NCBI GenBank assembly: GCA_030611205.1 | Contig: JAUWQF010000011.1 | Coordinates: 1-32,149 of the forward strand | Source: Methanothrix sp. | Lineage (GTDB): Archaea > Halobacteriota > Methanosarcinia > Methanotrichales > Methanotrichaceae | Reading direction: 5' to 3' | DNA: 32,149 nt | Shown: piece by piece, positions 3,319 to 21,063 of the stretch | Layout of the letters: every line of letters begins with the position of its first letter | How positions within the stretch are numbered: position 1 is the stretch's first letter | Notes under the pieces: model-generated | Databases searched by the model: none | What the model saw: the letters and a program-made list of their open reading frames with translations, nothing else | Told to the model about the DNA's origin: nothing | Program-made: the position numbers and the translations under genes

Positions 3319-4146
3319 TTAAGCCTCTTCGTGGGTATTCGTCTGCCACCATATCATAGCGCTTTTTGATTTACGCTTCAAGCATAGCGCTCCATTATCT
3401 TCTACCAGTGTTTTGGATAGATACTCCCTCAGGACCACCTCTTTTTCTGATGGCAGGTCATATGTTTCTTTTAGTTTAGTCACTGCCTCATCTATACCGA
3501 CGTAGTGCTGTTCAAATTCTGAGTCCCATATTTCCACATTCGCATATATGCCCATGTCGTGCAGGATATTGCAAAGGTAGATATAATCCGACCATGAAGA
3601 ACGTTTTTCACCGTAAATTTTCTCCCAGAGTCCTCCGTCCATCCACCTACCTGCAAAAGTAAAGAGATAAACACATTTTTTCGATGCGGCATCCATTTTT
3701 GCAAGTGCATCCTGTATATCAAGCATGGCAAGCGAATGGGACGCTATTACAACGTCATGCTGCTCTATATCAACGCCCAACTTGGTGTCTTCCCACTTTT
3801 TATTAAGATATGTGATGTTTTCCACACTTTCTCTTTCCATGTTTTCTTTAAGACACGCAAGCATGCCTCTGGATGGGTCTATCGCAGTCACGCTCTTTAC
3901 GCACTTTGCGATAGGAATAGCAAGTCGTCCAGTACCAGCACCCACATCCAGAACCGTATATTCTGGAGCGAGTTCGATCTTTGCCATTTGTTTTTGAGAG
4001 CGTTCTCTGTTCTGCGTCATGGACTCGTTGAACTGTTTTGCTCTACCGTCCCAGAAGCTACCAGCGGGTTCGTCGAGGGTTATTCTCCATGGAGAGCTCG
4101 ATCTCGCAAGCTTACAGAGTTCGTTCCAGTTTATTATTCCTTGCAT
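3319..4146 (-). CDS. Class I SAM-dependent methyltransferase (copy 2)
   Basis: A 275-residue paralogue nearly identical to the gene at 308-1135, with the same motif I (VLDVGAGTGRLAIPIAK), the same SAM-ribose acidic motif (TAIDPSRGML) and the same C-terminus (WWQTNTHEEA). The ATG at 4146 (MQGIINWNEL) was chosen because similarity to copy 1 stops there; the open frame continues 50 codons upstream without any match. It follows SBP2 and ends one base before a btuC start, so the SBP-methyltransferase-btuC order is the same as in copy 1. The methyltransferase is intact although its downstream btuC partner is destroyed. It may therefore act with transporters encoded elsewhere, or be at an early stage of decay. 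Confidence 0.85.
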   Translation of the reverse strand: MQGIINWNELCKLARSSSPWRITLDEPAGSFWDGRAKQFNESMTQNRERSQKQMAKIELAPEYTVLDVGAGTGRLAIPIAKCVKSVTAIDPSRGMLACLKENMERESVENITYLNKKWEDTKLGVDIEQHDVVIASHSLAMLDIQDALAKMDAASKKCVYLFTFAGRWMDGGLWEKIYGEKRSSWSDYIYLCNILHDMGIYANVEIWDSEFEQHYVGIDEAVTKLKETYDLPSEKEVVLREYLSKTLVEDNGALCLKRKSKSAMIWWQTNTHEEA

Positions 4147-4317
4147 GTTATTCCCATCTGAAAAAATCGATGTGGTAGTTTTTGATCCAGTTTTAGCTAT
4201 GTTCATTTGCCATGCCTTCTTACCTAAATAATGAAAAGAGGAGGAAAACCCTCCAAACAAACTTTCTCGTTTTTCTGCATTGCTCTTGTGTCTCATTACA
4301 CATTCTGGTGCCTTATA

Positions 4318-5631
4318 CTACTGACTATCCAACCACTCTCGAAGCCAGATCGTTGCATCAGCATACTCTGTGAAAAGACCGTCGACTCCTAGAAATTTTT
4401 CATATATCTCGTTACCCTCTTCTTCTACATCCAGATCCTCGAATTCTTCTGGGTGGAATAGTTTAGCCAGATACATCATATTGGCAAGGTTTCTATCCTG
4501 TGGGGTACCACAGCAGTAGGGATACATGCTAAAGTAGACTCTGTGATTCTTTACAGCATCTAAAGTCTGCAAATCGGGGTCTGAGAGTATCACCTCTACA
4601 TCATTTACCTCATCTAACGGTGTGTCAAAGCTGTGAGCAACGATAATTATATCAGGATTCCATGCGATGATCTGCTCTTTTGAAACATCCACTGCGGCCC
4701 CTGGACTTGTTCCACAATCTTTTGCTACATTTATACCACCAGCTATATCTAGAGGCTCATAGAAATTTGTGGTAGTAGTAACACCACCAAAATATGCAGA
4801 TGGTTCTACCCCCCGGGACGCAAAATATACTGTCGGCTTCTCATCATCAGGTATTTCTGATGTGACTTCTCCCACTTCATCAATTTTTTCTTGGACAAAT
4901 GTGACTATCTCTTGTGCCTCATCTTCTTTTGTAAGTATTATTCCCAAAAGCTCTGCCGCCTCGTATAGCTCTTCGAATTTATGGCCACCTGATTTGACGC
5001 ATACAACGGGAATACCTGTTTGCTCTTGGAGTGTATTGGCAGCATCTGAGTACGTACTACTTGCACCATAAGCAAAAATCACATCAGGCTCTAAGGAAAG
5101 TGTTAGCTCTGCATTATCAATGGATACACACCAACCTACCACAGGAAGTTCAAAGAGCTTCCCACCACATACTTCTGCTGCACATATTGGTGCAACTTCC
5201 GGGCTATTATAACAAAGACAGGTACTACCGTAGCTATTTATTCCTACGAGTTTATTCCCCTCACCAAGTGCAACAATTAATCGGGTTGGATCTGGAGGAC
5301 CAGAAACCACTCGCTCTATCGGTCTTGGCACCGTCACCGTTCTATCAATCATATCGATAAGCGTTAGCTCCTCCTCCTCCCCACGTATGATCTGCTCTAT
5401 CTGAGTTATGTCCTCCTCGTCGATCTCGCTATCGTAATTGGCATCTGCAAGCTCAGTACGTTCATTTGTTCCATCGATTATGCCCTCTACGTATGCTATG
5501 TCATCCTCATCTATCGTATCATCCATGTTCGCGTTTCCGAAGATGCCCAGCATATAATCAGATGCACCCGCCGGCATAACAGCCAGCGATATGCATGACA
5601 TCAGCACCAATACACAGACCATTCTCCTCAT
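4318..5631 (-). CDS. Dockerin-bearing substrate-binding protein (SBP2)
   Basis: A 437-residue exported binding protein. A signal peptide (about 1-23, AGA cleavage site) precedes a dockerin-like module with calcium loops at about 33-44 and 63-74 (DANYDSEIDEED). A PF01497-type ligand domain follows, starting near DRTVTVPRPIERVV. The ligand domain differs strongly from SBP1 although signal peptide, dockerin and upstream DNA are nearly the same. It is longer and has several cysteines (LCYNSPEVAPICAAEVCGG; YPYCCGTPQ), which may be disulfides or metal ligands. The C-terminus ends in an amphipathic IWLREWLDSQ instead of the usual GVFVYP tail. The ATG follows GAGGTGGCAAA. It is probably co-transcribed with the methyltransferase downstream. 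Confidence 0.88.
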   Translation of the reverse strand: MRRMVCVLVLMSCISLAVMPAGASDYMLGIFGNANMDDTIDEDDIAYVEGIIDGTNERTELADANYDSEIDEEDITQIEQIIRGEEEELTLIDMIDRTVTVPRPIERVVSGPPDPTRLIVALGEGNKLVGINSYGSTCLCYNSPEVAPICAAEVCGGKLFELPVVGWCVSIDNAELTLSLEPDVIFAYGASSTYSDAANTLQEQTGIPVVCVKSGGHKFEELYEAAELLGIILTKEDEAQEIVTFVQEKIDEVGEVTSEIPDDEKPTVYFASRGVEPSAYFGGVTTTTNFYEPLDIAGGINVAKDCGTSPGAAVDVSKEQIIAWNPDIIIVAHSFDTPLDEVNDVEVILSDPDLQTLDAVKNHRVYFSMYPYCCGTPQDRNLANMMYLAKLFHPEEFEDLDVEEEGNEIYEKFLGVDGLFTEYADATIWLREWLDSQ

Positions 5632-5857
5632 TTTGCCACCTCTTAATCCAGCAGCCAGCAGTAACACCTCACAGAGACCAGAACCGCTGGAGTAATACAG
5701 ATCATCCAATATGTACACAAACAGCAGCTTGGTTTATAACATTGTCGGTAGTTGTATTATAAAATATGACTCAATCTAACAAAATACATACACAATGAAC
5801 GCAATCCGGGTGAAAAGAACAAGAGCCCGCCTCATCGCCCCAATTGCCGGTATAAAA
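5632..5857 (-). promoter_or_regulatory. Promoter and leader of SBP2 (repeat copy B)
   Basis: The second copy of the shared upstream region. It holds the same drifted TTTATAA dyad (about 5732-5762) and leader as copy A and is likewise preceded by a cobN 3' end. A TATA-like run lies within the dyad, so a repressor or activator bound there could control transcription. The role is inferred from conservation among the copies and not shown directly. Confidence 0.45.
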
Positions 5858-6902: not shown

Positions 6903-7478
6903 ATGATGTGAGCAGGGAGACCGGATCTCCTGTTGCGTAGATCCTACCCTTCTTCAACATCACGTGGGTATCGGCGTACCGTGATGCCAGGTTCAAGATC
7001 GTGGATGGCCATCACAGCCGAGATATCTATATTCCTGACGAGATCACGTATGATCCCCATCACCTCGAGCTGGTGTTTCAGATCCAGGTTGCTCGTCGGC
7101 TCGTCCAGAAGAAGAACCGCGGGCTCCTGGCAGAGCGCACGGGCGACGAGCACCTTTTGCTTCTGTCCCCCGCTCAGCTCGTTGAAGTCCTTCAGGGCAA
7201 ACTCATCGATGTGGAGAATCTCCATTTATATCCACAACCCTCTCTATGTCCTCCTCGGCTACGCGCCAGCCCATGTGCGGCCATCTCCCCATCAGGATGG
7301 TATCAAAGACCGCTGTCGAAAGGATGCTGGAGCTGGACTGGGGGGACGTACCCGATGTACCTTGCGATATCCTGCCTGCTCATCGCCTCGATATCCCTTC
7401 CATCCAGGAAGATGCTACCCTTCGGCTTGAGGATCCGGTCGATGCACTTGATGAGCATCGTTTTGCCGGAAAGGATAA
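6903..7478 (-). pseudogene. Decayed btuD (ABC importer ATPase) copy
   Basis: The sequence matches the intact ATPase gene at 26395-27183 closely but is broken. It begins inside the Walker A motif (SGKTMLIKCIDRILKPKGS), shifts frame near IGYVP, shifts again before [17 protein letters not shown], keeps Walker B (VLLLDEPTS), shifts after AIHDL, and ends near GDPVSLLTS. Both the first about 38 residues and the last about 30 are missing. It cannot make a working ATPase. With the cobN tail at 5858 it marks a former btuC-btuD-cobN copy. Its 5' side abuts a transposase fragment, which may explain the truncation. Confidence 0.85.
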
Positions 7479-7781: not shown

Positions 7782-7826
7782 CAGGGGGACGACCCATTCA
7801 CTCACCTTCGAGCAATTGGTATTGAA

Positions 7827-8639
7827 CTAATACTGAACAAGACTCCCGTCCATCTTTGCTCTCTTGACCGCGTACGTGAACGACAGTAAACCCAGAGGCA
7901 CCAGCACAACCGAGAATATAGAGAGAGCGATTATCTCCGGAGCCAAGGCTGAAAGCGAGTAGCCCTGCAGAAGCGCATGCCTCATCCCGCTCAGCGAGTA
8001 CGTGATCGGCAGAATATGCGAGATTGTCTGGAGCCACTCAGGTAACACGGAAATTGGAAAGAGCACTCCGCCAAAGAGTTCGGATGTGCTCATAAAAAAC
8101 ATGTTGATCGGGTCGCCTCTCTTGAGTACCATGATGAAACTTGCAGAGATTATGCCAATGCTGCCGAAGCATATTATCGTCAGAACGAGGATGATCAGAG
8201 CAGCAAAGATATTTGCATTACTCATGTCCACACCCAGCAAAATACCGATCAAAAGATACATCAAAACTCTGAAAGACATGAAGATAAAACTCCAGAGAGA
8301 GGATAACGTTACTATTGCTGAGGTATCGGTCGGGGTCACGAGCATTGCTTCCAGTGTGCCCATCATCTGCTCACCCCGGATGCTTTCTGAAAAACTCCTG
8401 AGCGCAGTCATCAGATACCCTGAAAAGGCTATGCCTATCAGCACAAAGGAGAAATAGTCCCCACCATACGGCTCAAGATGCGCCATTCCCGCACCCCCGA
8501 CCAGTTTGGAAACAAAGTAGAAGGTAATAACCGAGAAGAGTATGAAGAAGAATCGCAGGAAGAACTCGAACTTATAGCTTGTTGCAAGTACCAGATCTCT
8601 TGTTATGAAGGAAAACGCTTTTTTGGTTAAAATCTTAAT
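7827..8639 (-). CDS. ABC-2 type transporter permease (DrrB/NodJ-like)
   Basis: An about 270-residue membrane protein with six hydrophobic segments, partner of the ATPase upstream. The N-terminal region (AFSFITRDLVLATSYKFEFF and the helix after it) is typical of the family. The middle carries EQMMGTLEAMLVTP and the late FGGVLFPISVLPEW motif. An ATG exists only at 8486, which would cut off the first helix. The homologous frame continues upstream to about 8639 and overlaps the ATPase stop by about 13 bases. No ATG, GTG or TTG lies there: either ATT at 8639 or 8633 is used, or a run of seven G just upstream hides an indel. Such pairs export lipids, drugs or polysaccharide; the substrate is unknown. 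Confidence 0.75.
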   Translation of the reverse strand: MKILTKKAFSFITRDLVLATSYKFEFFLRFFFILFSVITFYFVSKLVGGAGMAHLEPYGGDYFSFVLIGIAFSGYLMTALRSFSESIRGEQMMGTLEAMLVTPTDTSAIVTLSSLWSFIFMSFRVLMYLLIGILLGVDMSNANIFAALIILVLTIICFGSIGIISASFIMVLKRGDPINMFFMSTSELFGGVLFPISVLPEWLQTISHILPITYSLSGMRHALLQGYSLSALAPEIIALSIFSVVLVPLGLLSFTYAVKRAKMDGSLVQY

Positions 8640-9547
8640 CCCCCCCTTCTGCCTCCACGAAACCCACGCATCACTCCTCTACGTCCCGAGTAAGCCCGCT
8701 TTGGTGCTACTTCCTTGAACTCCTTGCCCGTGTAATGCAGGAAGACATCATTCAATCCGGGGTCTGGTTTGTCAAGCGCATCTTTTAGTCCTTCTAACGT
8801 TCCGATCACCTTTATTCTGCCCTCATCAATAATTGCAATCCTGTCGCACAACTCTTCTGCCTCAGGAAGGTTGTGTGTGGATAGAAAAACGGTCTTTCCC
8901 TCGTCCCCTATGATATGCTCTTTGATAAACCCTCTCAAATTCTGTGCCGCGCCCGGGTCCAGAGCCTTGGTTGGTTCATCCATAAACAGAACCGCGGGAT
9001 CGTTCAATAATCCACGTGCAATAGCCATCCGTTGTTTCATTCCAGCGGAATAACTGAGAAACTCATCATCTGCCCTGTCCTTCAAGCCAACGAGACTCAA
9101 TAGCTCATCTATCCGCACTTCCGCATCATTGGAATAGTAATTGTGAAGAGAGGCAAAGAATTTAAGGTTCTGTCTTCCGGTCAGCCGCCAATAGAAGCTT
9201 CGTTCATCAGAAGTAATGAAACCGATCGATCTCCTGACCTTCCCGCTATCCTTTACGAGGTCATACCCGTTTATGTGAGCGGTTCCTTCTGATGGCAAAA
9301 TCAGTGTGCATAACATCTTTATGAGTGTGGTCTTGCCAGCGCCATTCGGTCCGAGAATACCAAACAGCTCGCCTTTCTCGATCTTGATGTTCACCTCTTC
9401 AACGGCTGTTATCTCATCCTTTCTGAATGGATGCAGGAAAAAGTCGGTAAATCCCTTCTGCAGTCCGAACTTCTTTGTCAGTTCGCAAGTCTCAATTGTG
9501 TATCTCAATATATCATCCTTTCCTGATCGTTGTCTTGATGGATCCAA
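8627..9547 (-). CDS. ABC-2 exporter ATP-binding protein (DrrA/NodI/CcmA-like)
   Basis: A 306-residue ATPase. Walker A is GPNGAGKTT near residue 68, the signature is LSYSAGMKQRMAIARG near 163, and Walker B is VLFMDEPT near 185, followed by a D-loop (KALDPGAA) and an H-loop (STHNLPEAEE). The signature YSAGM and the insertion after EEVNIKIEKGE are usual in polysaccharide/drug exporter ATPases rather than in BtuD. The last about 30 residues are basic and glycine-rich (GRRGVMRGFRGGRRGGLRF). This tail is atypical and may reflect a frame change at the adjacent G-run. It forms a two-gene unit with the overlapping permease, inserted among fragments of the B12-type system. Confidence 0.88.
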   Translation of the reverse strand: MDPSRQRSGKDDILRYTIETCELTKKFGLQKGFTDFFLHPFRKDEITAVEEVNIKIEKGELFGILGPNGAGKTTLIKMLCTLILPSEGTAHINGYDLVKDSGKVRRSIGFITSDERSFYWRLTGRQNLKFFASLHNYYSNDAEVRIDELLSLVGLKDRADDEFLSYSAGMKQRMAIARGLLNDPAVLFMDEPTKALDPGAAQNLRGFIKEHIIGDEGKTVFLSTHNLPEAEELCDRIAIIDEGRIKVIGTLEGLKDALDKPDPGLNDVFLHYTGKEFKEVAPKRAYSGRRGVMRGFRGGRRGGLRF

Positions 9548-9580
9548 TCGGTATGATGTATGATGCTTCGGATTGTTTCC

Positions 9581-9865
9581 TTATGACTGCCTCGACATAT
9601 CAAAGACAGAGGTGGGAAAGCCGCGAGAGATAGTCTGCTGAACATAACCTATATTCTTGGCGACCTCCATCCTGCTCATCTTCATGATCTCTCTTCGATC
9701 CAGAAGCACGCTTCCATGATTCGGTTTTATGATCTTGTCTATGCATTTGAGGAGAGTGGATTTGCCAGAGCCATTCGGACCAACGATACCAAGTATCCTT
9801 GACGGGGCAAGCTGGATGGATACATCATCGAGAATCGGCGGACCTGAATACCACAGCACGCTCAT
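9581..9865 (-). pseudogene. Truncated BtuD-like ATPase fragment
   Basis: A 95-codon frame covering only the first third of an importer ATPase. It includes ILDDVSIQLAPSRILGIVG, Walker A (GPNGSGKSTLLKCIDKI), and the Q-loop region (NIGYVQQTISRGFPTSVFD). It stops at MSRQS before the signature and Walker B. It lacks the normal first about 15 residues as well. Its sequence differs from the btuD at 26395-27183, so it comes from another ABC importer. It joins directly to the SPFH-like fragment upstream. It cannot hydrolyse ATP as it stands. Confidence 0.75.
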
Positions 9866-10013
9866 ACTGCCTCACAATCTTCACAGCCGTTACTATGAGA
9901 GCGATCATCAAAAAGCCAGAGATCTTTCCCGGGATTGCGGTAATCCCATGCAGGGGAAGCGTACCATACGCATTCACAAACGACGTTAGAAACGATGATC
10001 CATTCCCTGTCAT
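9825..10013 (-). pseudogene. Possible stomatin/SPFH protein head, truncated
   Basis: A 62-codon frame starting one base after the NifH-like stop. Its central part is a membrane helix followed by a juxtamembrane motif (MIALIVTAVKIVRQYERAVV) that resembles the start of stomatin/prohibitin-type proteins. It then runs out of frame at the junction with the truncated ATPase (RSADSR and stop). The identification rests on one short motif. If correct, a stomatin-like gene once followed the nitrogenase-like operon and was lost by deletion. Confidence 0.45.
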
Positions 10014-10014
10014 T

Positions 10015-10887
10015 TCAAACGTCTCCTGTCAGATTTGAACCAGTCTCCTCTCTTTCCCTCAAGAGAACCTCTATCTCTTCGTTTATCCCATCGAGTTCGT
10101 CATCCGAGAGTGGGTCAGGCATAACCCGATCCTCATTCTCGCAGATGGCAGTAGCGAGGTATCTGAACGTATCTGCGATCTCCGAGTCAGGTACATACTC
10201 GATCACAGTCTTGCGGTGCAACTCAGCCCTTGGTATGAGTATGCTCATCGGGACTCTTCCCAGCACCTTCGTACCCAATCTCGCTGCGAAGCCATCGATT
10301 ATCGACGGTTCATCAACCACACTCCTGCCGTTGTAGATGATTCCGCCGAGGGTTACCGCACCACGGTCTGCGAACCGTTTTATGCATTTGCAGATGTTGT
10401 TTGCGGCATAGATCGCCATGGGATCGCAGGTTGTTACGATGTAGACATCGTCAGCCAGACCCTGTCGGAGAGGCATCGCAAACCCGCCGCAGACAACATC
10501 GCCAAGCACATCGTATATCACGGTATCAGGCTTGATGTCATCGAATACACCAATACGGTCGAGCATATCCACAGCGGTTATCACTCCACGCCCGGCACAG
10601 CCAACACCCGGTTCCGGTCCGCCAGCTTCGATGCAGTGAACACCATTGAAGCCTTTGAAGACGACATCGTCCAGCTTCATCCTATCAGGTCCCTCTGTCC
10701 GGAAGAGATCGAGCACGGTTGGAAGCCTCTTGCCGACCAGATTCCGGGTCATGTCAGACTTCGGGTCACAGCCCATCACCATGATCGTCTCACCGTTCTC
10801 TGCCAGAGCCGCGGCAATGTTTGAGACGATCGTGGATTTGCCGATCCCACCTTTTCCGTATACGCAGAATTTTCTCATTTCATTCAT
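10015..10887 (-). CDS. NifH-like reductase ATPase of a nitrogenase-like complex
   Basis: A 290-residue P-loop iron protein. The Walker A/deviant P-loop is [18 protein letters not shown] at the N-terminus. Switch I carries [11 protein letters not shown]. The two cysteines that bind the bridging 4Fe-4S cluster are in GVGCAGRG (with the Arg that is ADP-ribosylated in NifH) and [11 protein letters not shown]. By family it passes electrons with ATP hydrolysis to a two-subunit component 1. The start overlaps the K-like stop (TGAATG), giving tight coupling in a D-K-H operon. It could serve a tetrapyrrole reductase (compare BchX, BchL, CfbC) or an unknown reductase. Nothing suggests true nitrogen fixation, because neither component 1 keeps the cofactor ligands and nifENB are absent here. 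Confidence 0.9.
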
Positions 10888-12008
10888 CCATAACTCATAA
10901 CAGTGTTAATTATCGCCTCAGTCAGGCAGACAGCACCTCTGAAACCTGCGTAGGGTGCATCATCATATACACAGACATTATCAAAGACAGGATAACAGAA
11001 CCTTATCAGGGGAATATCAAGCGTCCTAGCAATATTCTGCTCAAAGCTGCTTCCGAAAAGGATTGTCGTGTTTGAGTTCCTGACTCCTTCCTCGAATTCA
11101 AAGTAATCGTCCACATTTCTGGCAGAGACCTCGACGTTGAAGCCAAGCTCCCAGTTCAGGAAGTTTGCCATCGCTTCTGCATGGAAATCGCCGATTATTG
11201 AGACCGGGGTTCCGTAGAGTTCATGCAGATATAAGTATACCTTCTTGAACGGTTCGATATCGAACTCCGGCTCATGCCCTGTGCCAAGTTCTTCTGATAT
11301 TGCGCTGGTGAGCTGCGTTGTGCCTTCAAGTCCGTAAGGATACTCCATCTCGAGATATGGCACACCGAACTCTATCTTCATATGCTCTGCAAGCTTACTT
11401 CCCTGCCCGAGTACCACGTTCAGCTCTGCCGCTGGCGCTTTTTTGAACTGCTCCAGACTGCATTTCGATATCACAGAGTTCACTTCCACGCCTGCATCGC
11501 GGAGCAATCGTTTGATCTCTTTCACGTCCGCATCGACCTTGAAGTCATCAGGAGAGAAGCCAATCAGATTGACAGAGTTTTCAATCATATCAGATTCATT
11601 CATCAGCCCTGCCAGATGGGTGAGTGCTTCTTCGTATCCATCCCTCATCGAGCCCTTGAAGCCAGCAGCTTCCATCCACATCACTTCCGCGTCGAGCGTT
11701 ACAGAGTTCACGACCGCCCCAACGTCATCGCCTATGATCGAAGGGGCATCGCCCGCTATGACCAGTAGAATAGGGGTATCGTACAGCTCGTCCGCCCGTA
11801 TCAATGCTTCACGCAGTGCGTCTTCACCACCGAAGACTATCTCTCGTTCGTGCATGACAGTGCAGGCATGTCTCATATCGAACTGATTTGAGGTGGTCTT
11901 GAAGATCGCAGCGCCCCAGTTACATCCAACAGGGACATGATTGAGCACCACTGCATCAGTTATTCCAGAAGATGCCCGGAATGCACCAAAGAATTTACCG
12001 CCGTCCAT
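10884..12008 (-). CDS. Nitrogenase-like component 1, K-type subunit
   Basis: A 374-residue NifD/NifK-superfamily protein. It retains the [10 protein letters not shown] cysteine (residue 29) at the position of the second P-cluster cysteine, and a further cysteine at 49. At the position of the third P-cluster cysteine (before IIGDD) it has aspartate 87. The short N-terminus lacks the first cysteine. The Cys-to-Asp change recalls the mixed Cys/Asp cluster of protochlorophyllide reductase. I prefer ATG 12008, which has GTGAT five bases upstream, over the GTG at 12017. The gene overlaps the D-like gene by about 14 bases and the NifH-like gene by 4. It probably forms a heterotetramer with the D-type subunit. 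Confidence 0.85.
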
Positions 12009-13581
12009 TGTTATCACATCCTTCGCTCTTCATGCTCCACATCCCGGACCACATCTCTCTCGATGCCGAGCATCGGTTATCATCAAGCATGGGGTAGTAG
12101 ATTTTATCATAGTTGAACCTGGAGATTATGGGTTCTCGATGATTCTGACCTGTCTTTCCGGTATTCAGTTCACGGTTGAGATACTTTCCGAACACAACGA
12201 TTCCGGAAAAACCGGTTCGGAAGAGGAGGTATCTCGTGGCAGAGATGTCTGTCACCCCGACTCCACCGCCCTTTTCGTAGATGGGTGGTGTTATGCGATC
12301 GCTCAGGACGTGGTCAACCTTCTTTGCAATTTCCGACATCTCATCGAGTGTCGGGTTCGTTATGACCTCAAATTTCAGGTCCCATTCCTCGAACGCTTCC
12401 TGCATGTTCGTAATCATGACCTCGATCGTTTCCTCAGATATGTTGAGAGCCTTCAGAAGCTGCATATCCACGCAGAGGTATTTTATCGGGAGTTTTAGAT
12501 CGGTTGCATAGATTCTTGCAAGATATGGAGTAAAGAAGAACCCCTGAGTCGAAACAGCGAAATCATCCCTTGCAAATATATTCCGGTATTTCTCAAGTTC
12601 CTGGAGAGATTGCGTCTTCTCTCTTCTGATCGCATCATCTGCTTCTCCATCTAGACCCAGTTTCGATGCTGCATCGTGGTAGAACTTCTCAACACCGTCG
12701 AGACCAAAGTAGAAGAACCATTTCCGGATATAGTCGTTTCCGAATCTCGCCTTCATCCGCTCTGCCCAGCGCAGGTTCCGGGTTACGATGTTGAGTTCTG
12801 CGGCAGGAGCACGTTTTATCTCTTCGACGGTACACGTCGGAAGTGTCAGATTCACACTGACCCCCATCGCACCGAAGATGTGTTTGATCTCCCGAAGCTC
12901 GCTTCTGAATCCGTAAGTGAATCTGCCAAAGGACTCGATGTTCACAAGATTCTCAACGATCTCCTGCTCCTCCATCAGTTGATCCACGATCGAGAACATT
13001 ACCTCCTCATGCCCGCAGCCCCGCAGATCGTACGCCGGAGATCTCGAAGGATCCTTCCACGATTCCGCATAGTCTCGCATAATCATATCGAGCGACTCCC
13101 TGCTCCGATGTGCGAAGCCCTCTGACGGGACATGCAGAAGATCGCAGGGGAGATCGAGTTCTGTGATGACTCCTGAAACGTCATCGCCGACCAGACCCGA
13201 GACGCATGTCGGAAGGACAGCGATCAATGACGGATGGAACCGGCGATAGACCTCGTTGATATTATCTCGCAGCTTATCCTCTCCGCCGTAGATTACATCA
13301 TTCTCGTTTAGATCCGTGCATGGCAGATTGTAGATCGGTGCATACATCTTGCGTGGCGTCAATCGCTGGTGAAAAGCACAGCCACTCGGTCCGTGTATGA
13401 GCGGTATTGCGCCCTCGATCTCTGATACCGCGTAGACGGAGCCAGAGAGCTTACAGTTTATTCCGTAACGGTGAAACTGCCACGTTGTGCCCTGGTGAAT
13501 GCCGTTGAATACGCGATCACGGAATATCTCACGGAGCGGACTTCCATCATCATTTGCCATATCGTGTTTGCTCATTTCCAT
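11995..13581 (-). CDS. Nitrogenase-like component 1, D-type subunit
   Basis: A 528-residue NifD-superfamily protein, first in a D-K-H operon. P-cluster-type cysteines are present at 43 (GINCKLSG), 68 (IHGPSGCAFHQR) and 126 (VLPTCVSGLVGDD), with an extra one at 88. The FeMo-cofactor cysteine of NifD is replaced (LNIVTRNLRW), and I see no counterpart of the cofactor histidine. A cofactor-free reductase is therefore likely, as in ring-reducing enzymes for chlorophyll or F430. Having separate D and K subunits sets it apart from the two-gene CfbC/CfbD F430 reductase. A frameshifted SBP gene lies about 105 bases upstream and an HmdB-like gene precedes that, so the set may be part of a longer operon. 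Confidence 0.88.
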   Translation of the reverse strand: MEMSKHDMANDDGSPLREIFRDRVFNGIHQGTTWQFHRYGINCKLSGSVYAVSEIEGAIPLIHGPSGCAFHQRLTPRKMYAPIYNLPCTDLNENDVIYGGEDKLRDNINEVYRRFHPSLIAVLPTCVSGLVGDDVSGVITELDLPCDLLHVPSEGFAHRSRESLDMIMRDYAESWKDPSRSPAYDLRGCGHEEVMFSIVDQLMEEQEIVENLVNIESFGRFTYGFRSELREIKHIFGAMGVSVNLTLPTCTVEEIKRAPAAELNIVTRNLRWAERMKARFGNDYIRKWFFYFGLDGVEKFYHDAASKLGLDGEADDAIRREKTQSLQELEKYRNIFARDDFAVSTQGFFFTPYLARIYATDLKLPIKYLCVDMQLLKALNISEETIEVMITNMQEAFEEWDLKFEVITNPTLDEMSEIAKKVDHVLSDRITPPIYEKGGGVGVTDISATRYLLFRTGFSGIVVFGKYLNRELNTGKTGQNHREPIISRFNYDKIYYPMLDDNRCSASREMWSGMWSMKSEGCDNNGRR

Positions 13582-13628
13582 ATTTATATTACCCTTTTGT
13601 TTTTGGTTATTGAATTCATGGAAAATGT

Positions 13629-13686: not shown

Positions 13687-14963
13687 TCAGCTCGGTTCTG
13701 GATACACGAAAACACCATGCTCGTCCAGATCGTAGTCCAGTCCCTGGAACTCTGTCAGATATTCCCGATGGATCGCCTGTGGATCTAGGTCCTCGAAGAG
13801 TTCGGGATGGAACCACTTTGCCATGTATGCGGTGCCTATGAGACAGCCTGATCCGCCTGTCGCAATATCCAGAAACGCCATCATGTAAACATTCCCGGTC
13901 TTCACTGCAGTGACCTCAGCCAATTCAGGACGGTTCATGATATCCTCTCTTGCTGCTGCCATCTCGCCAGAGGCATCCGTACCATAACCGCTGGAGATGT
14001 AGCTACTATATTGTGCAACGATGATCTCGGGATTCTGCGTCACCACCCATTCAGCATCTACTATGGGCCAGGTGCCTAACAGACCCTCAGCCATGTCTCG
14101 TCCGCCAGCTATATCACCCATCTGATGTATTCTACCGGTTTCGTGAATGGTCCTGTAATCTCCTCCCGGTTGGAAGAAGCTCCAGTGGAATACTTTTGGC
14201 TTCTCATCCTCCGAAAGCACCTCTGTACGAGATCTGATCTCATCTGTCCAGCCCTCATGCCAGTTGATGTACTCGGAAGCCTCTTCTTCCTTGTCGACGA
14301 TGTACCCGAGTAATCTCACCCTTTCCGTGAAGCCCTCTGGATTTCTCAGGTTCATACCAATGATCATTACGCCCGGAAGTTTCTCCTCATCCATGTATGC
14401 AGGACCTTTTACAAACGCCAGGAAAAGATCAGGATCCAGACTGAGTATCGCTTCGTAGTCCAGTCCTGGGCCCATCCACTGACCTATGACTGGCAGCTTG
14501 CTGAGCTCCGGAAAGAGAACATCCGCATCCTTGATGTGTGTGCCAACACCAACGATCTTATCCTCCGCATCGATTGATCGCAGTACCTCAGTGGAAGGAG
14601 CCATCAGGACAACGATACGTTCCACTGGCTTTTCAATGGTTATAATTTCAGGCGGTGCCGGTTGAAGCACCTCGGTGGGGGCTATAAAGGTGAGTTCCTG
14701 CTCCTCCCCGCGTATGATCAACTCTATCTGGGTTATGTCATCCTCATCAATTTCGCCGTCGTAATTAGCATCTGCCAGCTCGGTAGCTTCGTTTGTTCCC
14801 TCGATTATGCCCTCTACATATGCTATATCATCCTCATCTATCGTATCATCCATGTTCGCGTTCCCGAAGATGCCCACAGCGCGTAATCAGATGCACTCGC
14901 GGGCATAACAGCCAGCGACATGCACAACATCATCACTACCAATGCACAGACCATTCGCCTCAT
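13687..14963 (-). pseudogene. Dockerin-bearing substrate-binding protein, frameshifted after the signal peptide (SBP3)
   Basis: The signal peptide is encoded from ATG 14963 (MRRMVCALVVMMLC, ending MPASASDYAL). A 2-base insertion near 14874-14880, CTGTGGGC where sister genes have CTGGGC, then throws the dockerin and ligand domain out of frame. Removing two bases gives a 424-residue protein: dockerin calcium loops (NANMDDTIDEDD; DANYDGEIDEDD), a PF01497-type domain with EKPVERIVVLMAPSTEVLRS, and the usual GVFVYPEPS end. The main frame is undamaged, so the lesion is recent, a slippage-prone switch or an assembly error. Without correction the product would start at 14877 and stay in the cytoplasm. 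Its start is five bases after the HmdB-like stop. Confidence 0.8.
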
Positions 14964-14967
14964 TTTA

Positions 14968-16029
14968 TCACTCATATTTGTCAGCTATTTTGGGTTCAAC
15001 TTCCATTCCAGCCCCAGTAATGAATCTCACGGTTGTTGGAAGTAAATTTACAAAGTCTAACATATCATTGATATGTTTTACTTCTGCACTTGTTGTAGGC
15101 CACCTCGAACCATCCCTTACTCTGTGTACTGATGCACCAGCATGGACGACTCTGTTGACTCCAGCCATTATCCAGAGTGGAATGTGTTCGTATCCACTGA
15201 TATGGATGTCAATATCTCGAAAAATCAAACGTGCGATTGCAGCAGTTTTTGCCGCCTCCAGTGGCGAAGCCGGTGGATGGTTAGCCATCGGAGTTCCAGG
15301 ACCCGGATGGAACCATGTGCATAGGAAATACTTGAAATTTTCGAACTGTTTCAGGTAAAACATGTGATCTACGCGGTCATCATAGGATTCTCCCAGTCCA
15401 CTCATTAGCACACTGTTTAATCTCAGTCCTGTATCGTTTATCATGTTAGCAAGTTTTTTTCTTGCATCCAGGTCATCTCCGGGTTTTACTTTTCTAAATA
15501 ACTCTTCATTAAGCGGGTTAACTTCGAAAGAGCTTGTTACATCTACCCCCCCTAAGTTCTTTAATTCCTTTAATGTGTCTTCAGAAAGTGCGGGACCAAC
15601 ATTCACCCAAATATCAAGGTTGGTCGCTCTTTTCACTGCTTTGACGGCTTCAATAACTTTTTCTCCACCATCTCCTACTATTGTTCCGCCACCAAGCTCT
15701 GTCATGCTTATTCCTGCTTCCTCTATCAATCTGGCACCTTCAACTATCTCATCAATGGTCAGAACATTCTCGGGTCCAAAACCAGAGCTGTTTATAGTGC
15801 TCGAATGCCCACAGTATCTGCATGGCGGATCAACAGTGCAGTGCGTAATTAAGCCTATAAAGCCATCCAGCTTAAACACATTCCCAGTTTCGTCATCCCG
15901 TACCCTGCTTGCAAGTTCAAACAGTTTCAATGCTTTGTCATATCTGCCTGTTTCTTTAAACAGATACAGTGCCTCTTCTCTTGTTATCTCACTACTTTCT
16001 GCATTTTTCAATACTTCTTCAAATATCAT
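14968..16029 (-). CDS. HmdB-like radical SAM enzyme (BioB/HydE/PylB superfamily)
   Basis: A 353-residue radical SAM protein. The cluster motif is CTVDPPCRYC, cysteines 64, 70 and 73, a CX5CX2C spacing instead of the usual CX3CX2C. That spacing is known from HmdB, which acts in FeGP-cofactor assembly for Hmd hydrogenase. A GGGT-like SAM-binding motif follows (ELGGGTIVGDGGE). The C-terminal half (HPGPGTPMANHPPAS and later SGYEHIPLWIMAGVNRVVHA) resembles the biotin-synthase/HydE barrel end. A GGAGGG site lies 8 bases before the ATG. No hmd, hmdC or other FeGP gene is in the window, and it lies between SBP genes and the nitrogenase-like operon. A role in modifying a tetrapyrrole or other imported cofactor is possible. 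Confidence 0.82.
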   Translation of the reverse strand: MIFEEVLKNAESSEITREEALYLFKETGRYDKALKLFELASRVRDDETGNVFKLDGFIGLITHCTVDPPCRYCGHSSTINSSGFGPENVLTIDEIVEGARLIEEAGISMTELGGGTIVGDGGEKVIEAVKAVKRATNLDIWVNVGPALSEDTLKELKNLGGVDVTSSFEVNPLNEELFRKVKPGDDLDARKKLANMINDTGLRLNSVLMSGLGESYDDRVDHMFYLKQFENFKYFLCTWFHPGPGTPMANHPPASPLEAAKTAAIARLIFRDIDIHISGYEHIPLWIMAGVNRVVHAGASVHRVRDGSRWPTTSAEVKHINDMLDFVNLLPTTVRFITGAGMEVEPKIADKYE

Positions 16030-16101: not shown

Positions 16102-17385
16102 CTATTCCGGTTCTGGATAGACGAAAACGCCTTGCGTATCTAAGTCAATGTCCAATCCCTGGAATCTTGTCAGATATTCATGATGAATCGCTTTTGGATC
16201 TAAATCTTCGAACATCTCTGGATGGAACCACTTTGCCATGTATACAGTTTGAAGAAAGCCTCTACATCCACTGGCGGGCCCGTAACAAAGGATATAACCA
16301 CTGATTACGTAAACATCCCCTTCTTTTACAGCCTTCACACTCTCCAATTCAGGCCGACTCATCATTTCATCTCTCATCTCTTCTAACTTTGCTGTATCAC
16401 CTGCATCCAGGTCGTAACCACCACAACTCCCTGATACTTTAACTATAATCTCAGGGTTTTGATCTATTATTGCTTCAGGATTCACAGACCCCATCAAATC
16501 AGGGAAGATGTTCTTGCCACCTGCATTTCCGACGAGTGCACGAGATTCATCAGCAGTACCCCATTTGTTGCTGCCCTCAAAGTATACTTTTGGTTTATCG
16601 TCTTCAGGAATCTCATCCACCACCTCTTCGATCGAGTTCATAATATCCTCATACCAATCAATGAATTCCTCGGCTTCGTCCTGCTTATCAAAGACATATC
16701 CAAGCTTTTCTAATTCTTCACATATATCATTCCCCCATACACCCCCATATACACGAATCACTGTAATGCCAGCGGATTCTAACACATTTTGGGCATTATC
16801 GAGCGTTGGATCGCCACCCAAAGGTTTAGCTATTAACATGACCACATCCGGACGTAGGCTCAATATTACTTCACAATTAGGCTCCCATATCAATCCAACT
16901 GTTGGTTTATCTTGATACTCTGGGAAGAATACTTTATAATTAACTCCATACGGTGGCCCTCCTGATGATTGGACAAGACTTTCTACACCGACTACTTGAT
17001 TCTCCTCTACTCCAATCGATCGTACCATTCCAAGAGCTTGGCGGAACGTGACAACAATCCCATCCACCGGCTTATTCACAGTTATCGTTCTGTCAGCAGA
17101 ATCGATCAACGTGAGCTCCTTCTCATCTCCACGTATGATCTGCTCGATCTGGACGATATCATCCTCATCGATCCCGCCATCATAATTAGCATCAGCCAGC
17201 TCAGTCTCTTCATTCGTTCCCTCGATTATGCCCTCTACATACGCTATGTCATCCTCATCTATGGTGTCATCCATATTCGCGTTCCCGAAGATGCCAAGCG
17301 TGTAATCAGATGCGACCGAAGGCATTACCGCCAGTGTTGACGATAGAAGAAGCATCATCAGCAAAAAATTTGTAGATCTTTTCAT
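16102..17385 (-). CDS. Dockerin-bearing substrate-binding protein (SBP4)
   Basis: A 427-residue exported binding protein, last of five head-to-tail SBP genes. The signal peptide (about 1-26, ending PSVAS) is followed by a dockerin module with loops at about 34-45 and 64-75 (DANYDGGIDEDD). The PF01497-type ligand domain opens with DRTITVNKPVDGIVVTFRQA. The normally basic residue before the first strand (PVxRIV) is replaced by PVDGIV, so ligand or partner contacts may differ. The protein ends FQGLDIDLDTQGVFVYPEPE. Its ATG directly follows the TGA of SBP5, and the Shine-Dalgarno site is made by the last SBP5 codons. The HmdB-like gene begins 72 bases downstream. Confidence 0.9.
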   Translation of the reverse strand: MKRSTNFLLMMLLLSSTLAVMPSVASDYTLGIFGNANMDDTIDEDDIAYVEGIIEGTNEETELADANYDGGIDEDDIVQIEQIIRGDEKELTLIDSADRTITVNKPVDGIVVTFRQALGMVRSIGVEENQVVGVESLVQSSGGPPYGVNYKVFFPEYQDKPTVGLIWEPNCEVILSLRPDVVMLIAKPLGGDPTLDNAQNVLESAGITVIRVYGGVWGNDICEELEKLGYVFDKQDEAEEFIDWYEDIMNSIEEVVDEIPEDDKPKVYFEGSNKWGTADESRALVGNAGGKNIFPDLMGSVNPEAIIDQNPEIIVKVSGSCGGYDLDAGDTAKLEEMRDEMMSRPELESVKAVKEGDVYVISGYILCYGPASGCRGFLQTVYMAKWFHPEMFEDLDPKAIHHEYLTRFQGLDIDLDTQGVFVYPEPE

Positions 17386-18642
17386 TCAGCTCTCCTCCAT
17401 CGGCGGGTAGACAAACACGCCGTGTTCGTCAAGATCATAATCCAGTCCCTGGAATCTGGTCAGGTACTCCTGATGGATCGCCTGTGGGTCCAAATCCTCG
17501 AATAAGTCGGGGCGTAACCATTTTGCCATATATGCTATGGCTATGAAATGCTTTCCACCTGTAAGCTCTTTGATCATTACGTAAACTCTTTCATCCTTCA
17601 CTGCTGAGACGTTCGCCAACTCGGGGCGTTCCGCTATCTCGTCCCTTATATCTTTTAGCCACGTTACGTCGTCTACATTATAGCCATACTTGCCTCTGGC
17701 ATATCCCTGCTTAACTATAATCTCCGGGTTACGCACCATGACCTCTTCTCGGTCTATAACTTTATAGCCAGAAATGTCATCGAAAATGTTCTTGCCGCCT
17801 GCCACCTCCACAATTTGATGAAGTGCGGTCCCCTCTCCACCGATCTTGTAGGGTTCACCAAAACCTTCAAAGTAGACTCTTGTTTTTTTATCCTCGGGAA
17901 TTTCCTCCACACTCTCTTTGATATCATTCGAGTACCCTTCGTAGAATTCAAAGAAATCCTCTGCTTCATCCTCTTTATCAAAGATGTATCCCAGTTTGTT
18001 TACCTCTTCAAGATAATTTTCTGGTTTGAAGCAGTCAAGACGAACCACTGTGATGGAGGCATCTTCAAGCCTTTTTTGAACTTCATCACAAGATGCTTCG
18101 AAGTGTGTTGCATATAGAAATACAGCATCCGGGTCCAGCTCTATTATTTTTTCGATGTCCGGAGACCATCCAGAGCCTGCACTCGGATAGTCCTTGAACT
18201 CCGGGAAAAAATTTTCCTTCCCGATCGTACTCTTTGATACACAGATTATATTCTCTTTTTCCAGCTTGAGAGAACGCATCGCCTCCAGGGTATTCCAGTT
18301 GAGTACAACGACCTTCTCCAGTGGCTTATCTATTGTAACAGTACTTCCTACTGTATCTATGATCGTAAGCTCCTTCTCCTCCCCACTTATGATCTGCTCG
18401 ATCCGGGTTATGTCATCCGCATCAACTTCGCCATCATAATCGGCATCTGCCAGCTCAGTACGTTCGTTTGTTCCATCGATTATCCCTTCTACATATGCTA
18501 TGTCGTCCTCGTCTATGGTATCATCCATGTTTGCGTTACCAAAGACGTCAAGCGTGTAACCGGCTGCAGCTGCTGGTATGATCGCCAGCGGCGCACATGA
18601 TGCGAGAAGCATCACAAGCACAAAAACGATTGATGTTCTCAT
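17386..18642 (-). CDS. Dockerin-bearing substrate-binding protein (SBP5)
   Basis: A 418-residue exported binding protein. The signal peptide (about 1-27) contains LLASCAP, which looks like a lipobox, but the sister proteins lack it and an AAAA|GY cleavage is equally possible. Dockerin loops lie at about 35-46 and 65-76 (DADYDGEVDADD). The ligand domain opens with GSTVTIDKPLEKVVVLNW, with a lysine-rich N-lobe (LKLEKENIICVSKSTIG). It ends GVFVYPPMEES; the codons for EES plus the stop read GAGGAGAGCTGA and serve as ribosome binding site for SBP4. The gene starts directly after the SBP6 stop. The ligand is unknown. Confidence 0.9.
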   Translation of the reverse strand: MRTSIVFVLVMLLASCAPLAIIPAAAAGYTLDVFGNANMDDTIDEDDIAYVEGIIDGTNERTELADADYDGEVDADDITRIEQIISGEEKELTIIDTVGSTVTIDKPLEKVVVLNWNTLEAMRSLKLEKENIICVSKSTIGKENFFPEFKDYPSAGSGWSPDIEKIIELDPDAVFLYATHFEASCDEVQKRLEDASITVVRLDCFKPENYLEEVNKLGYIFDKEDEAEDFFEFYEGYSNDIKESVEEIPEDKKTRVYFEGFGEPYKIGGEGTALHQIVEVAGGKNIFDDISGYKVIDREEVMVRNPEIIVKQGYARGKYGYNVDDVTWLKDIRDEIAERPELANVSAVKDERVYVMIKELTGGKHFIAIAYMAKWLRPDLFEDLDPQAIHQEYLTRFQGLDYDLDEHGVFVYPPMEES

Positions 18643-19851
18643 TTAGCTCTCCTCCGGTGGTGGATAGGCATAAATACCCCGATACGGCATGCCCTGAAAT
18701 CGCTCCAGATATTCCTTATTCATTGCTTCTGGATCCAGATCATCGAATAACTCTGGATAGAACCATTTTGCGAGGCATGCGGCGCCGACAAAATATCTTG
18801 GCTTGGATGTGACCTGAATGGATATACAGTAAATTGCTCCATTCTTCACCGCCGTAACATTAGCCAGTTCATCACGGTTCATGATCTTAGCTCTTACCGC
18901 TTCCAGATTTGATGGATCATCGTGTTCATAACCACAGCCTATGCCTGTAAATGTCTGCCCGATAATGATATCAGGATTCTGCTCTGGCATTATCACCCAT
19001 TCAGGGTCTACATCTCTGTATTGATCAAAATCCGCAATATTTATTCCACCCACCATTGTACACAGATCATCAATTCCCACACCATTACCAATTGCCTTGT
19101 ATTCACTCTCATGCGTCCATATGGACTCAAAATACACCTTTGGTTTCTCTTCTTCTGATAGTTTCCCCACTCGCTCCTCGATCTTACTATTAAATTCCTC
19201 ATAGAAGTCGATAACATCTTCGGCCTCATCTTCCTTCTCGAGGATATACCCAAGTTTTCTAAAATCTTCTATCATATACGATGCCTTACTAAAACCCAAC
19301 CGGACCACAACGACATCGGTACCCTCAAGTTGTTCTTCAAGTCTTTCAGGAGGACATGACCCCGCGAATGCGAGGATAATGTCAGGTTCAAGGCTTAATA
19401 CCTTCTCAATGTCTGGCTCGAATCCACTCCCAACATCTGGCACCTTACTCATCACTGGGAAGAATAGAGAATGTTGTTTGGGCAAATAGTTAGGAATACC
19501 AACTACCTTATCCGTTGCTTTAAGCGATCGTATCGCTTCAGCACCATAGGTGCTCAAGACTATAATACGGTTTATCGGCTTGTATATCGTTACCTCCTTT
19601 CCATAAGGAGGATCGCACACAATCGTCCTCGGATAGTTCTCATGTATATGCCTGATCTCTTCCAGCTGATCAGATGTGATCTTTCCATCCTTGTACGACT
19701 GCTCGGCAACCCCCATCTCCTCATCAGAGACGATCTTGTCATCATTGCGATCGCCATGAACCACTACCCCCTGCGCACCGGCAGGCATTACCGCTAGCAG
19801 TGTAGATGATGCAAGAAGCATCATCAGCACAAAAATGGTATATCTTTTCAT
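18643..19851 (-). CDS. Substrate-binding protein with variant EF-hand/dockerin module (SBP6)
   Basis: A 402-residue exported binding protein. The signal peptide (about 1-26, AGA site) precedes a variant calcium module. One canonical 12-residue EF-hand loop is at 34-45 (DRNDDKIVSDEE). A shortened second loop is near 55 (DGKITSDQL), followed by the helix EEIRHIHENYP. This differs from the two-loop dockerins in SBP1-5 and SBP8 and recurs in SBP7 and SBP9. The PF01497-type domain starts near KEVTIYKPINRIIVLSTYGA, with an insert CDPPYG where relatives have DSAGR. It ends GIYAYPPPEES, whose codons again give the Shine-Dalgarno site for the next gene. Start and order were set by tight head-to-tail packing. 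Confidence 0.88.
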   Translation of the reverse strand: MKRYTIFVLMMLLASSTLLAVMPAGAQGVVVHGDRNDDKIVSDEEMGVAEQSYKDGKITSDQLEEIRHIHENYPRTIVCDPPYGKEVTIYKPINRIIVLSTYGAEAIRSLKATDKVVGIPNYLPKQHSLFFPVMSKVPDVGSGFEPDIEKVLSLEPDIILAFAGSCPPERLEEQLEGTDVVVVRLGFSKASYMIEDFRKLGYILEKEDEAEDVIDFYEEFNSKIEERVGKLSEEEKPKVYFESIWTHESEYKAIGNGVGIDDLCTMVGGINIADFDQYRDVDPEWVIMPEQNPDIIIGQTFTGIGCGYEHDDPSNLEAVRAKIMNRDELANVTAVKNGAIYCISIQVTSKPRYFVGAACLAKWFYPELFDDLDPEAMNKEYLERFQGMPYRGIYAYPPPEES

Positions 19852-19854
19852 TCT

Positions 19855-21063
19855 TCACACCTCTGGATAGACAAATACACCCTGCTCGTCCAGGTCATAA
19901 TCCAGCCCCTGGAATCTGGTCAGGTACTCCTGATGGATTGCTTGTGGATCCAGGTCCTCGAATAAGTCGGGGTGGACCCACTTTGCCACGTAGGCAAGTC
20001 CAACGACATTACTCACCCCATTGCAGATATCCGGGGTAATCAGGTAAATCTTGCCATTTTCTACTGCTGTAGTTTTCTCGAAGCCTAGGCGGCTCATAAT
20101 AGTATCTCTTACTGCTTTCATCTCTGTGGGATCATCTTCATCGTAACCACATGAGACTCGACTGCCAGATATACACTTTAATATAATATCAGGATTTTGT
20201 TCTATTAGCCATTCAGGATCTACTGAAGTAGCTGTAGTCTTTCCTGGCGCTATATCTTTAGCAATATTTATTCCGCCAGCCATCGTACATATCAGGTGAG
20301 TTGGAGAACGTTTATTGCGAGCGTTGTAGTCCCCATAGCATTCAATGTATACTCTAGGCTTCTTATCCTCATATATTCCTTCTATTTTTTCACAGATGGT
20401 ATCTATTTCACTCTGGTAAAAACTAACAAGTTCTTCTGCTTTATCTTCTTTTTCGAGAAGATATCCAATCTTTTCAATATCATCACATAACGCATCCGTA
20501 CTACAACAATCCAAACCAAGCAATAGAATCTCAGTACCCTTCAGATCATCTTCAAGTGCTTCTATTGGCGTTATCAACATAGTTCCGTATACAAGTATAA
20601 TGTCAGGAGACAAGCTGAGTATACCTTCGACATCAAGAGAACTATATTTTCCAACATTTGGCGATTTGCTTAAATCTGGGAAATACACCCCATCACTTGC
20701 AATATAATCACTCACTCCAACTATATTATCTTTTGATTCGAGTGCTCGAATAATCTCGGCACCTTTGGAATGTAGGACAATGATACGTTTTATCGGTTTG
20801 TATATCGTCACCTCTCTTCCGGCTGAATCAGTGATCGTCCTCGGATAGTTCTCATGTATATGCCTGATCTCTTCCAGCTGCTCAGATGTGATCTTCCCAT
20901 CCTGATATGACTGCTCAGCAGCAACCATCTCCTCATCAGAGACGATTTTATCGCCGTCAAGATCTCCTGGGACCACGACCCCCTGCGCACCGGCAGGCAT
21001 TACCGCCAGAAGTGTAGACGATGCTAGAAGAACCATCAACATGAAAATGGCAGATATTTTCAT
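19855..21063 (-). CDS. Substrate-binding protein with variant EF-hand/dockerin module (SBP7)
   Basis: A 402-residue exported binding protein. The signal peptide (about 1-26, PAGA) is followed by a single good EF-hand loop at 34-45 (DLDGDKIVSDEE), a degenerate second loop (DGKITSEQL) and the helix EEIRHIHENYP. The ligand domain opens with the textbook DSAGREVTIYKPIKRIIVL. A cysteine cluster (LDCCSTDALCDD) in the middle is not seen in neighbours and may bind metal or form a disulfide. It ends DLDEQGVFVYPEV, and the GAGGTG encoding the last residues is the ribosome binding site for SBP6, three bases further on. It is nearly identical to SBP6 in the first 70 residues but diverges in the ligand-binding part. 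Confidence 0.88.
   Translation of the reverse strand: MKISAIFMLMVLLASSTLLAVMPAGAQGVVVPGDLDGDKIVSDEEMVAAEQSYQDGKITSEQLEEIRHIHENYPRTITDSAGREVTIYKPIKRIIVLHSKGAEIIRALESKDNIVGVSDYIASDGVYFPDLSKSPNVGKYSSLDVEGILSLSPDIILVYGTMLITPIEALEDDLKGTEILLLGLDCCSTDALCDDIEKIGYLLEKEDKAEELVSFYQSEIDTICEKIEGIYEDKKPRVYIECYGDYNARNKRSPTHLICTMAGGINIAKDIAPGKTTATSVDPEWLIEQNPDIILKCISGSRVSCGYDEDDPTEMKAVRDTIMSRLGFEKTTAVENGKIYLITPDICNGVSNVVGLAYVAKWVHPDLFEDLDPQAIHQEYLTRFQGLDYDLDEQGVFVYPEV

Follow-up and report, generated by a model that had tools for sequence, protein, structure and literature searches.

To our knowledge, the substrates of nitrogenase-like enzymes are established in only a handful of cases. The locus analyzed here encodes such an enzyme as D-, K-, and H-type subunits and is located on a 32,149-bp contig of Methanothrix sp. 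(JAUWQF010000011.1), hereafter "the window", which is the whole of contig C19 of genome G000 (2.19 Mb, 95% complete). Among the described systems, chlorophyllide a oxidoreductase (COR, BchXYZ) likewise has separate H-, D-, and K-type subunits, lacks ligands for the iron-molybdenum cofactor (FeMo-co), and co-occurs with a class I chelatase. Three BchY cysteines and one BchZ cysteine hold the COR cluster, and the pattern read here at the three P-cluster columns agrees: the D-type subunit has three cysteines, and Gly, Cys, and Ser in BchZ correspond to Gly, Cys, and Asp in the window K (CCC plus GC followed by a non-cysteine). However, D and K of the window are placed apart from BchYZ in phylogenetic trees, and the host is a methane archaeon that is not phototrophic. 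Dark-operative protochlorophyllide oxidoreductase (DPOR, BchLNB) also consists of three components, is encoded in a locus with the chelatase BchH and the methyltransferase BchM, and has one cluster per NB pair, which is coordinated by three BchN cysteines and one BchB aspartate (PMC11423573). In BchB, the three columns are Pro, Asp (the ligand), and Cys, whereas the window K has its cysteine at column 2 and its aspartate at column 3, which argues against the mixed Cys/Asp cluster that a preliminary description of the window had likened to that of DPOR. CfbCD is an archaeal tetrapyrrole reductase, and in three genomes CfbC appears to be replaced by the H of the window lineage; on the other hand, CfbD forms a homodimer whose cysteines are confined to columns 2 and 3, whereas the window has separate D and K genes and the CfbD of G000 lies elsewhere, on contig C44. 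The enzyme may work like COR or CfbCD while being neither, and we consider with moderate confidence that it is an ATP-driven, two-component tetrapyrrole reductase of the nitrogenase superfamily.

The D-K-H set of the window is referred to as type 1, and a sister set, found in tandem with it in the anaerobic methanotrophic archaea of group ANME-2c, as type 2. The three genes of the window are as follows.

11995–13581, minus strand: D-type subunit of the type-1 nitrogenase-like enzyme, 528 aa (Pfam PF00148 Oxidored_nitro, E 4e-49; ligand columns; tree)
10884–12017, minus strand: K-type subunit, 377 aa (PF00148 Oxidored_nitro, E 1e-64; ligand columns)
10015–10887, minus strand: H-type ATP-dependent reductase, 290 aa (PF00142 Fer4_NifH, E 1.5e-110; motifs; type-1 H clade)

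The genes overlap by 23 bp (D/K) and 4 bp (K/H), and H carries a P-loop and both [4Fe-4S] cysteine motifs. The locus has what defines the nitrogenase superfamily, namely one operon that encodes a NifH-type ATPase along with D and K proteins of PF00148. D, K, and H are genuine genes, far beyond chance, because sets with about 90% identity occur in Ca. Methanogasteraceae and D and K with 50–66% identity in family f1. The Pfam matches, the overlapping genes, and the ligand columns agree with the preliminary description, which had recognized a three-component nitrogenase-like enzyme without cofactor ligands. Among the NCBIfam equivalog models searched, none reached its cut-off on D or K, and H exceeded the cut-off only for a broad "nitrogenase reductase-like" model and, narrowly, for nifH. 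The models of the chlorophyll enzymes scored below their cut-offs, with BchB at 112.6 bits (cut-off 490) and BchZ at 49 bits (cut-off 529) on K, and BchL at 220.6 bits (cut-off 345) and BchX at 186 bits (cut-off 331) on H. The CfbD model TIGR03282 scored 63 bits on D and 40 bits on K (cut-off 268), which places the pair outside CfbCD. K and D modeled as single chains with AlphaFold, using alignments of 10 and 12 rows, had a predicted local distance difference test score (pLDDT) of 39 and 43 and a predicted template modeling score (pTM) of 0.29 and 0.39, respectively. A second D-K-H set is located on contig C148 of the same genome.

Ligand columns were taken from a single alignment that included annotated Nif, Vnf, Bch, and Mar-like reference sequences. 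In D, the three P-cluster columns hold Cys43, Cys68, and Cys126, without exception in the 10 type-1 D sequences aligned over that part. In K, the columns are Gly, Cys32, and Asp90 (numbered from an upstream GTG; Cys29 and Asp87 in the preliminary description), invariant in 9/9 type-1 K sequences. The FeMo-co ligand columns (NifD Cys275 and His442) are a gap and Ser in D, and the P-cluster cysteines number three in D and one in K, compared to the six required of a nitrogenase. The three cysteines of D, the single cysteine and the aspartate of K, and the loss of the FeMo-co cysteine had all been noticed from the sequence alone and are borne out here, while an additional cysteine at the NLPCTDL/RHACTVM column (D Cys88 and K Cys52) had been missed; K Cys52 is invariant and D Cys88 is replaced by Ser in one relative.

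Four cysteines per pair are common to the window lineage, its type-2 sister (D Gly, Cys, Cys; K Cys, Cys, Ser), a third lineage (type 3; D Cys, Cys, Cys; K Ser, Cys, Gly, with Ala in one), BchYZ, and CfbD, and Nostoc NifN has Ser, Cys, and Gly. This count fits one all-cysteine [4Fe-4S] cluster per D-K pair, implying that Asp90 need not be a ligand because three cysteines of D and one of K would suffice. Selection appears to retain four ligands rather than six, since the tandem type 2 sums to four as 2+2 and the third lineage as 3+1. The tandem sisters, which have lost different cysteines (3+1 and 2+2), provide natural material on the change between a P-cluster site and a [4Fe-4S] site.

In D/K trees of 94 and 52 sequences, none of them from Isr or "group VI", D of types 1 and 2 group in a single clade (Shimodaira–Hasegawa-like approximate likelihood ratio test [SH-aLRT] 100; bootstrap/SH-aLRT 100/99), as do type-1 and type-2 K (SH-aLRT 99; bootstrap/SH-aLRT 99/95). 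Both clades are outside the fully supported NifD/E/VnfD, NifK/N/VnfK, Mar-like, and CfbD clades, the Mar-like clade being that of the Chlorohelix set, whose closest PDB match is MarD. A join with the Bch subunits, BchN/BchB included, was neither supported nor rejected by the approximately unbiased test (p 0.24 and 0.29). In the H tree, type 1 joins type 2 (SH-aLRT 92), apart from NifH, CfbC, BchL, BchX, Mar-like, and type-3 H. The three subunits are concordant, so that an ancestral D-K-H set appears to have been duplicated, with the two sets in tandem in ANME-2c. This phylogeny, which the preliminary description had suggested as a check, places the type-1 and type-2 lineage outside every characterized family tested (Nif, Vnf, Mar-like, Bch, and Cfb). 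No relative was found in the viral contigs searched, and no description was found in the open-access literature (subscription papers not being covered) on nitrogenase-like enzymes with ANME or CobN. The ANME nitrogenases of Chadwick et al. belong to the NifHDK "methane seep group", whose FeMo-co ligands are intact (PMC9012536), and are distinct from the window enzyme, which is a previously uncharacterized three-part nitrogenase relative in ANME-2-related methane-cycling archaea.

The substrate class is suggested by the neighboring genes, which include transporters, a chelatase, and possible tailoring enzymes (ABC, ATP-binding cassette; SAM, S-adenosylmethionine; Peripla_BP_2 being the family of the periplasmic binding proteins, PBPs).

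308–1312, minus strand: SAM methyltransferase with weak similarity to CpaM, CbiT, and BchM
3319–4296, minus strand: second, duplicated SAM methyltransferase
7827–9547, minus strand: ABC-2 exporter downstream of H (permease 7827–8486; ATPase 8627–9547)
13687–14877, minus strand: Peripla_BP_2 substrate-binding protein directly upstream of D
14968–16029, minus strand: radical SAM protein, HmdB/HcgA-like (TIGR03957, 201 bits, cut-off 321; CX5CX2C motif CTVDPPCRYC)
16102–22311, minus strand: five consecutive Peripla_BP_2 substrate-binding proteins with gaps of 0–3 bp, three of them with N-terminal dockerin-like repeats
22546–26283, minus strand: CobN-type class I chelatase large subunit, 1245 aa (PF02514; NCBIfam CobN NF004646 over cut-off, BchH marginally over)
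26395–27183, minus strand: ABC importer ATPase of the corrinoid/heme/iron-complex type (best NCBIfam model corrinoid ABC ATPase, below cut-off)
27177–28250, minus strand: FecCD/BtuC-type permease (PF01032; best NCBIfam model BtuC, below cut-off)
31515–32149, plus strand: ChlI/CobS-like AAA+ chelatase subunit, cut by the contig end (TIGR02442, E 1e-105; BchI-ChlI, E 1e-97; the fragment is below whole-protein cut-offs)

All genes from the FecCD permease to H are on one strand with gaps of 234 bp or less, in the order FecCD permease, ATPase, CobN, five binding proteins, radical SAM protein, binding protein, D, K, and H, followed by the exporter. Two methyltransferases and four more binding proteins flank this block, and the window has ten substrate-binding proteins in total, four of them beyond the FecCD-to-H block. 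The best PDB matches of the window CobN are M. tuberculosis CobN, then ChlH, with HmuS weaker; it has no methionine-rich stretch (at most 4 Met in 60 residues; residues not aligned to HmuS). The ChlI-like gene, divergent at the right end of the window, was overlooked in the preliminary description. ChlI-type motors are the partners of class I chelatases in metal insertion.

In the proposed mechanism, an H dimer with one [4Fe-4S] cluster would hydrolyze ATP and hand low-potential electrons to D-K, which would hold one [4Fe-4S] cluster per pair via D Cys43, Cys68, and Cys126 and K Cys32, with an organic-substrate pocket replacing the FeMo-co site. The substrate would be a tetrapyrrole handled by the locus (a porphyrin, chlorin, corrin, or F430-type ring). 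Peripla_BP_2 proteins may bind the tetrapyrrole outside the cell and the BtuC/FecCD-type ABC transporter import it, after which CobN with the ChlI-like motor would metallate or demetallate the ring, D-K-H would reduce it, and the methyltransferases and the radical SAM enzyme could tailor the product. Metal insertion is argued for by the presence of the ChlI-like gene, while removal is allowed by the precedent of HmuS (PMC12583661). The idea of a tetrapyrrole ring reductase, already put forward in the preliminary description, gains from the CobN, ChlI-like, and importer genes, which favor a ring as the likely substrate.

This association extends beyond the window. Based on a table coded by hand from search outputs, CobN is located within 15 kb of 8/17 type-1 to type-3 loci but of 0/39 Nif/Vnf/Mar-like loci from this order (Fisher p 2e-5). 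About 1 kb downstream of the type-2 locus of G000 are CobN fragments (residues 1–108 and 214–366) that look like a decayed gene (L025:9247–9965); this locus was scored as having no CobN. Photosynthesis clusters are grouped alike, as BchN-BchB-BchH-BchL-BchM. As a separate observation, CobN-family genes are unusually numerous, with up to 8 copies per genome.

Several points weigh against a tetrapyrrole reductase. The loci are phylogenetically non-independent, which makes the Fisher p-values too small, and CobN is common in the order (40/50 genomes), often without D-K-H. No CobN lies within 15 kb of the other 9 of the 17 loci, although several of these are on short contigs, and the closest type-1 relatives, those of ANME-2c, show CobN on a single contig only, as a fragment. 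FecCD/PBP genes also occur near some Vnf loci and were therefore discarded as specific markers. Moreover, we infer the substrate class, and isethionate reductase IsrHDK, which likewise combines four cysteines with a lack of FeMo-co ligands, has a small sulfonate as its substrate (PMC11423573).

A link between type-1 H and known tetrapyrrole reduction is provided by F430 synthesis. A PF00148 match is present in each of the 50 genomes of the order, and where it is the only one it scores like CfbD (confirmed with TIGR03282 on one). A CfbC-type H was found in 30/33 near-complete genomes. The exceptions are G000, G049 from the genus of G000, and the 99% complete G004 from another genus; each of them has the alpha subunit of methyl-coenzyme M reductase (MCR), CfbD, and type-1 H, the latter being the sole NifH relative in G049 and G004. 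Among the 33 genomes, MCR and CfbD occur without CfbC in these three only, and each of them carries type-1 H, which ties this subunit to a known tetrapyrrole reduction (Fisher p 0.004, too small given the relatedness of the loci). In G004 (L177:10362–11219) and G049 (L178:496–1392), type-1 H occurs without D or K, and in G004 it adjoins FecCD, ATPase, and PBP genes. G000 keeps an apparent cfbA-cfbE-cfbD order, where cfbA and cfbE are named by position and length only, and no NifH relative was found in the remaining 1.3 kb of the contig downstream of cfbD. Type-1 H probably serves CfbD in place of CfbC in these genomes. The preliminary description had set the enzyme apart from CfbC/D, which holds for D and K as separate genes in a distinct clade but less so for H, which is probably interchangeable with CfbC in some genomes.

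The dependence of the hosts on F430 and the type-1 H of the CfbC-less genomes could also mean that D-K-H as a whole is an F430-pathway enzyme, in which H replaces CfbC and D-K further alters F430 into an ANME-specific variant. This special case of a tetrapyrrole reductase is decidedly unlikely, as D and K are absent from 2/3 CfbC-less genomes, CfbC is present in other D-K-H carriers (G013, G018, UBA203, and UBA261), D-K-H is not linked to cfb genes on the DNA, and little evidence of significant changes to F430 was found in ANME-2 by Chadwick et al. (PMC9012536). Scavenging of iron or cobalt from corrinoids or siderophores, where D-K-H would only reduce the bound metal for release, agrees with importer and chelatase types that fit B12, heme, or siderophores. 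The Hmu heme system (HmuS, HmuTUV) likewise combines a PBP, FecCD, an ATPase, and a CobN-family protein in one locus, and HmuS, a CobN relative, can demetallate imported heme (PMC12583661). The hmu loci lack nitrogenase-like genes, and HmuS carries a methionine-rich insertion and works with no ChlI partner. However, known scavenging systems need no costly ATP-driven reductase, the ChlI-like motor of the window suggests insertion over HmuS-like removal, and the window CobN is closer to CobN and ChlH than to HmuS; scavenging seems highly improbable.

An Isr- or Mar-like small-molecule reductase is an unlikely explanation, albeit one with several parallels. In this case, the radical SAM protein would assist, the ABC importer would bring in an organosulfur or similar substrate, and D-K-H would cleave it reductively. 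IsrBHDK and MarBHDK pair nitrogenase-like HDK with a radical SAM gene, and Isr, whose four ligand cysteines (IsrD plus IsrK, 1+3) come without FeMo-co ligands, needs the radical SAM protein IsrB and an ABC importer (PMC11423573); the window likewise has a radical SAM gene and importers. On the other hand, Mar keeps the full cysteine set and the window has 3+1, the trees, in which IsrD was not included, fully support a position of D and K outside the Mar-like clade, and the radical SAM protein resembles HmdB/HcgA rather than NifB or BciD; of the loci seen, only one other has it beside D-K-H. The importer is of the BtuC/FecCD rather than the sulfonate type, and CobN would be left unexplained. 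Least probable of the explanations weighed is a NifEN-like scaffold or maturase of a metal cluster, to which the 3+1 pattern shared with Nostoc NifEN and a NifB homolog in the genome would point; D and K are outside NifEN and VnfEN, and G000 has no NifDK, VnfDK, or other client enzyme to serve. NifB is present in 11/11 genomes tested, including those with CfbD only, and is explained by a probable requirement in MCR activation (PMC12176620), so that NifB absence was dropped as an argument.

Under the tetrapyrrole reductase reading, methane archaea might, more tentatively, possess a dedicated import-metallate-reduce pathway with up to three nitrogenase-like reductases (types 1–3) for an undescribed cofactor or pigment, with type-1 H also powering F430 synthesis where CfbC was lost. 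The use that archaea make of their many CobN/ChlH/HmuS relatives is described as unclear by the authors of the HmuS study (PMC12583661), and a coupling of chelatase and reductase would be a direct and testable answer.

Named relatives of D with 90–92% identity are from Ca. Methanogasteraceae (ANME-2c), e.g., UBA203 and UBA261, while G000 is a member of a different family in this class. At the DNA level, identity to ANME-2c amounts to 85–92% over 9916–13610, which is exactly D-K-H, 83–87% over the exporter (7826–9610), about 84% over the methyltransferase genes, and 86% at one end of CobN, and the rest of the window is mostly at 65–70% or unmatched. Both methyltransferase copies match one and the same ANME-2c gene. 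Tetranucleotide composition is ANME-2c-like at 10–16 kb and like G000 and its family in the remaining window. A misbinned contig as a simple explanation was rejected because only 10–16 kb is ANME-2c-like and the rest fits G000 or its family, and horizontal transfer of the D-K-H cassette appears more likely. Truncated ABC transporter ATPase fragments at 6944–7225 and 9581–9865 are possibly rearrangement remnants around the transferred block.

Near-identical N-terminal dockerin-like calcium repeats (GNANMDDTIDEDDIAYVEGIIEGTNE...DANYDGEIDEDD) are found in the binding proteins at 1340–2680, 4318–5718, 13687–14877, 16102–18642, and 21064–22311, suggesting that these proteins may be assembled on an extracellular cohesin scaffold, although the repeats had no Pfam dockerin match at 1e-3.

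Other arrangements of nitrogenase-like genes were also observed. The third, independent D-K-H lineage (type 3; Cys 3+1), which has a short, 247-aa H, adjoins PBP/FecCD genes, and in several cases CobN closely follows (L137:9208–12582, L138:8701–12117, L139:133–3497, L140:9474–12844, L141:9726–13008, L090, and L091). At L032:2171–5397, a type-1 D comes directly after a type-2 D, no K separating the two, and a methyltransferase comes next, which is either a rearrangement or an unusual D-D arrangement. In Methanosarcina (L135:7861–11405, from the 5.75 Mb genome G200) and at L145:7446–10972, a natural H-D fusion of 755 aa (NifH domain 3–269, Oxidored_nitro 341–739) is followed by a K-type gene of a long-branch lineage with Asp, Cys, and Pro at the three cysteine columns. 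Separate D-K-H sets in Methanosarcina and relatives (L043:205–3816, L076:9408–13041, and L078–L080) are sister to VnfEN and have Cys at all six columns.

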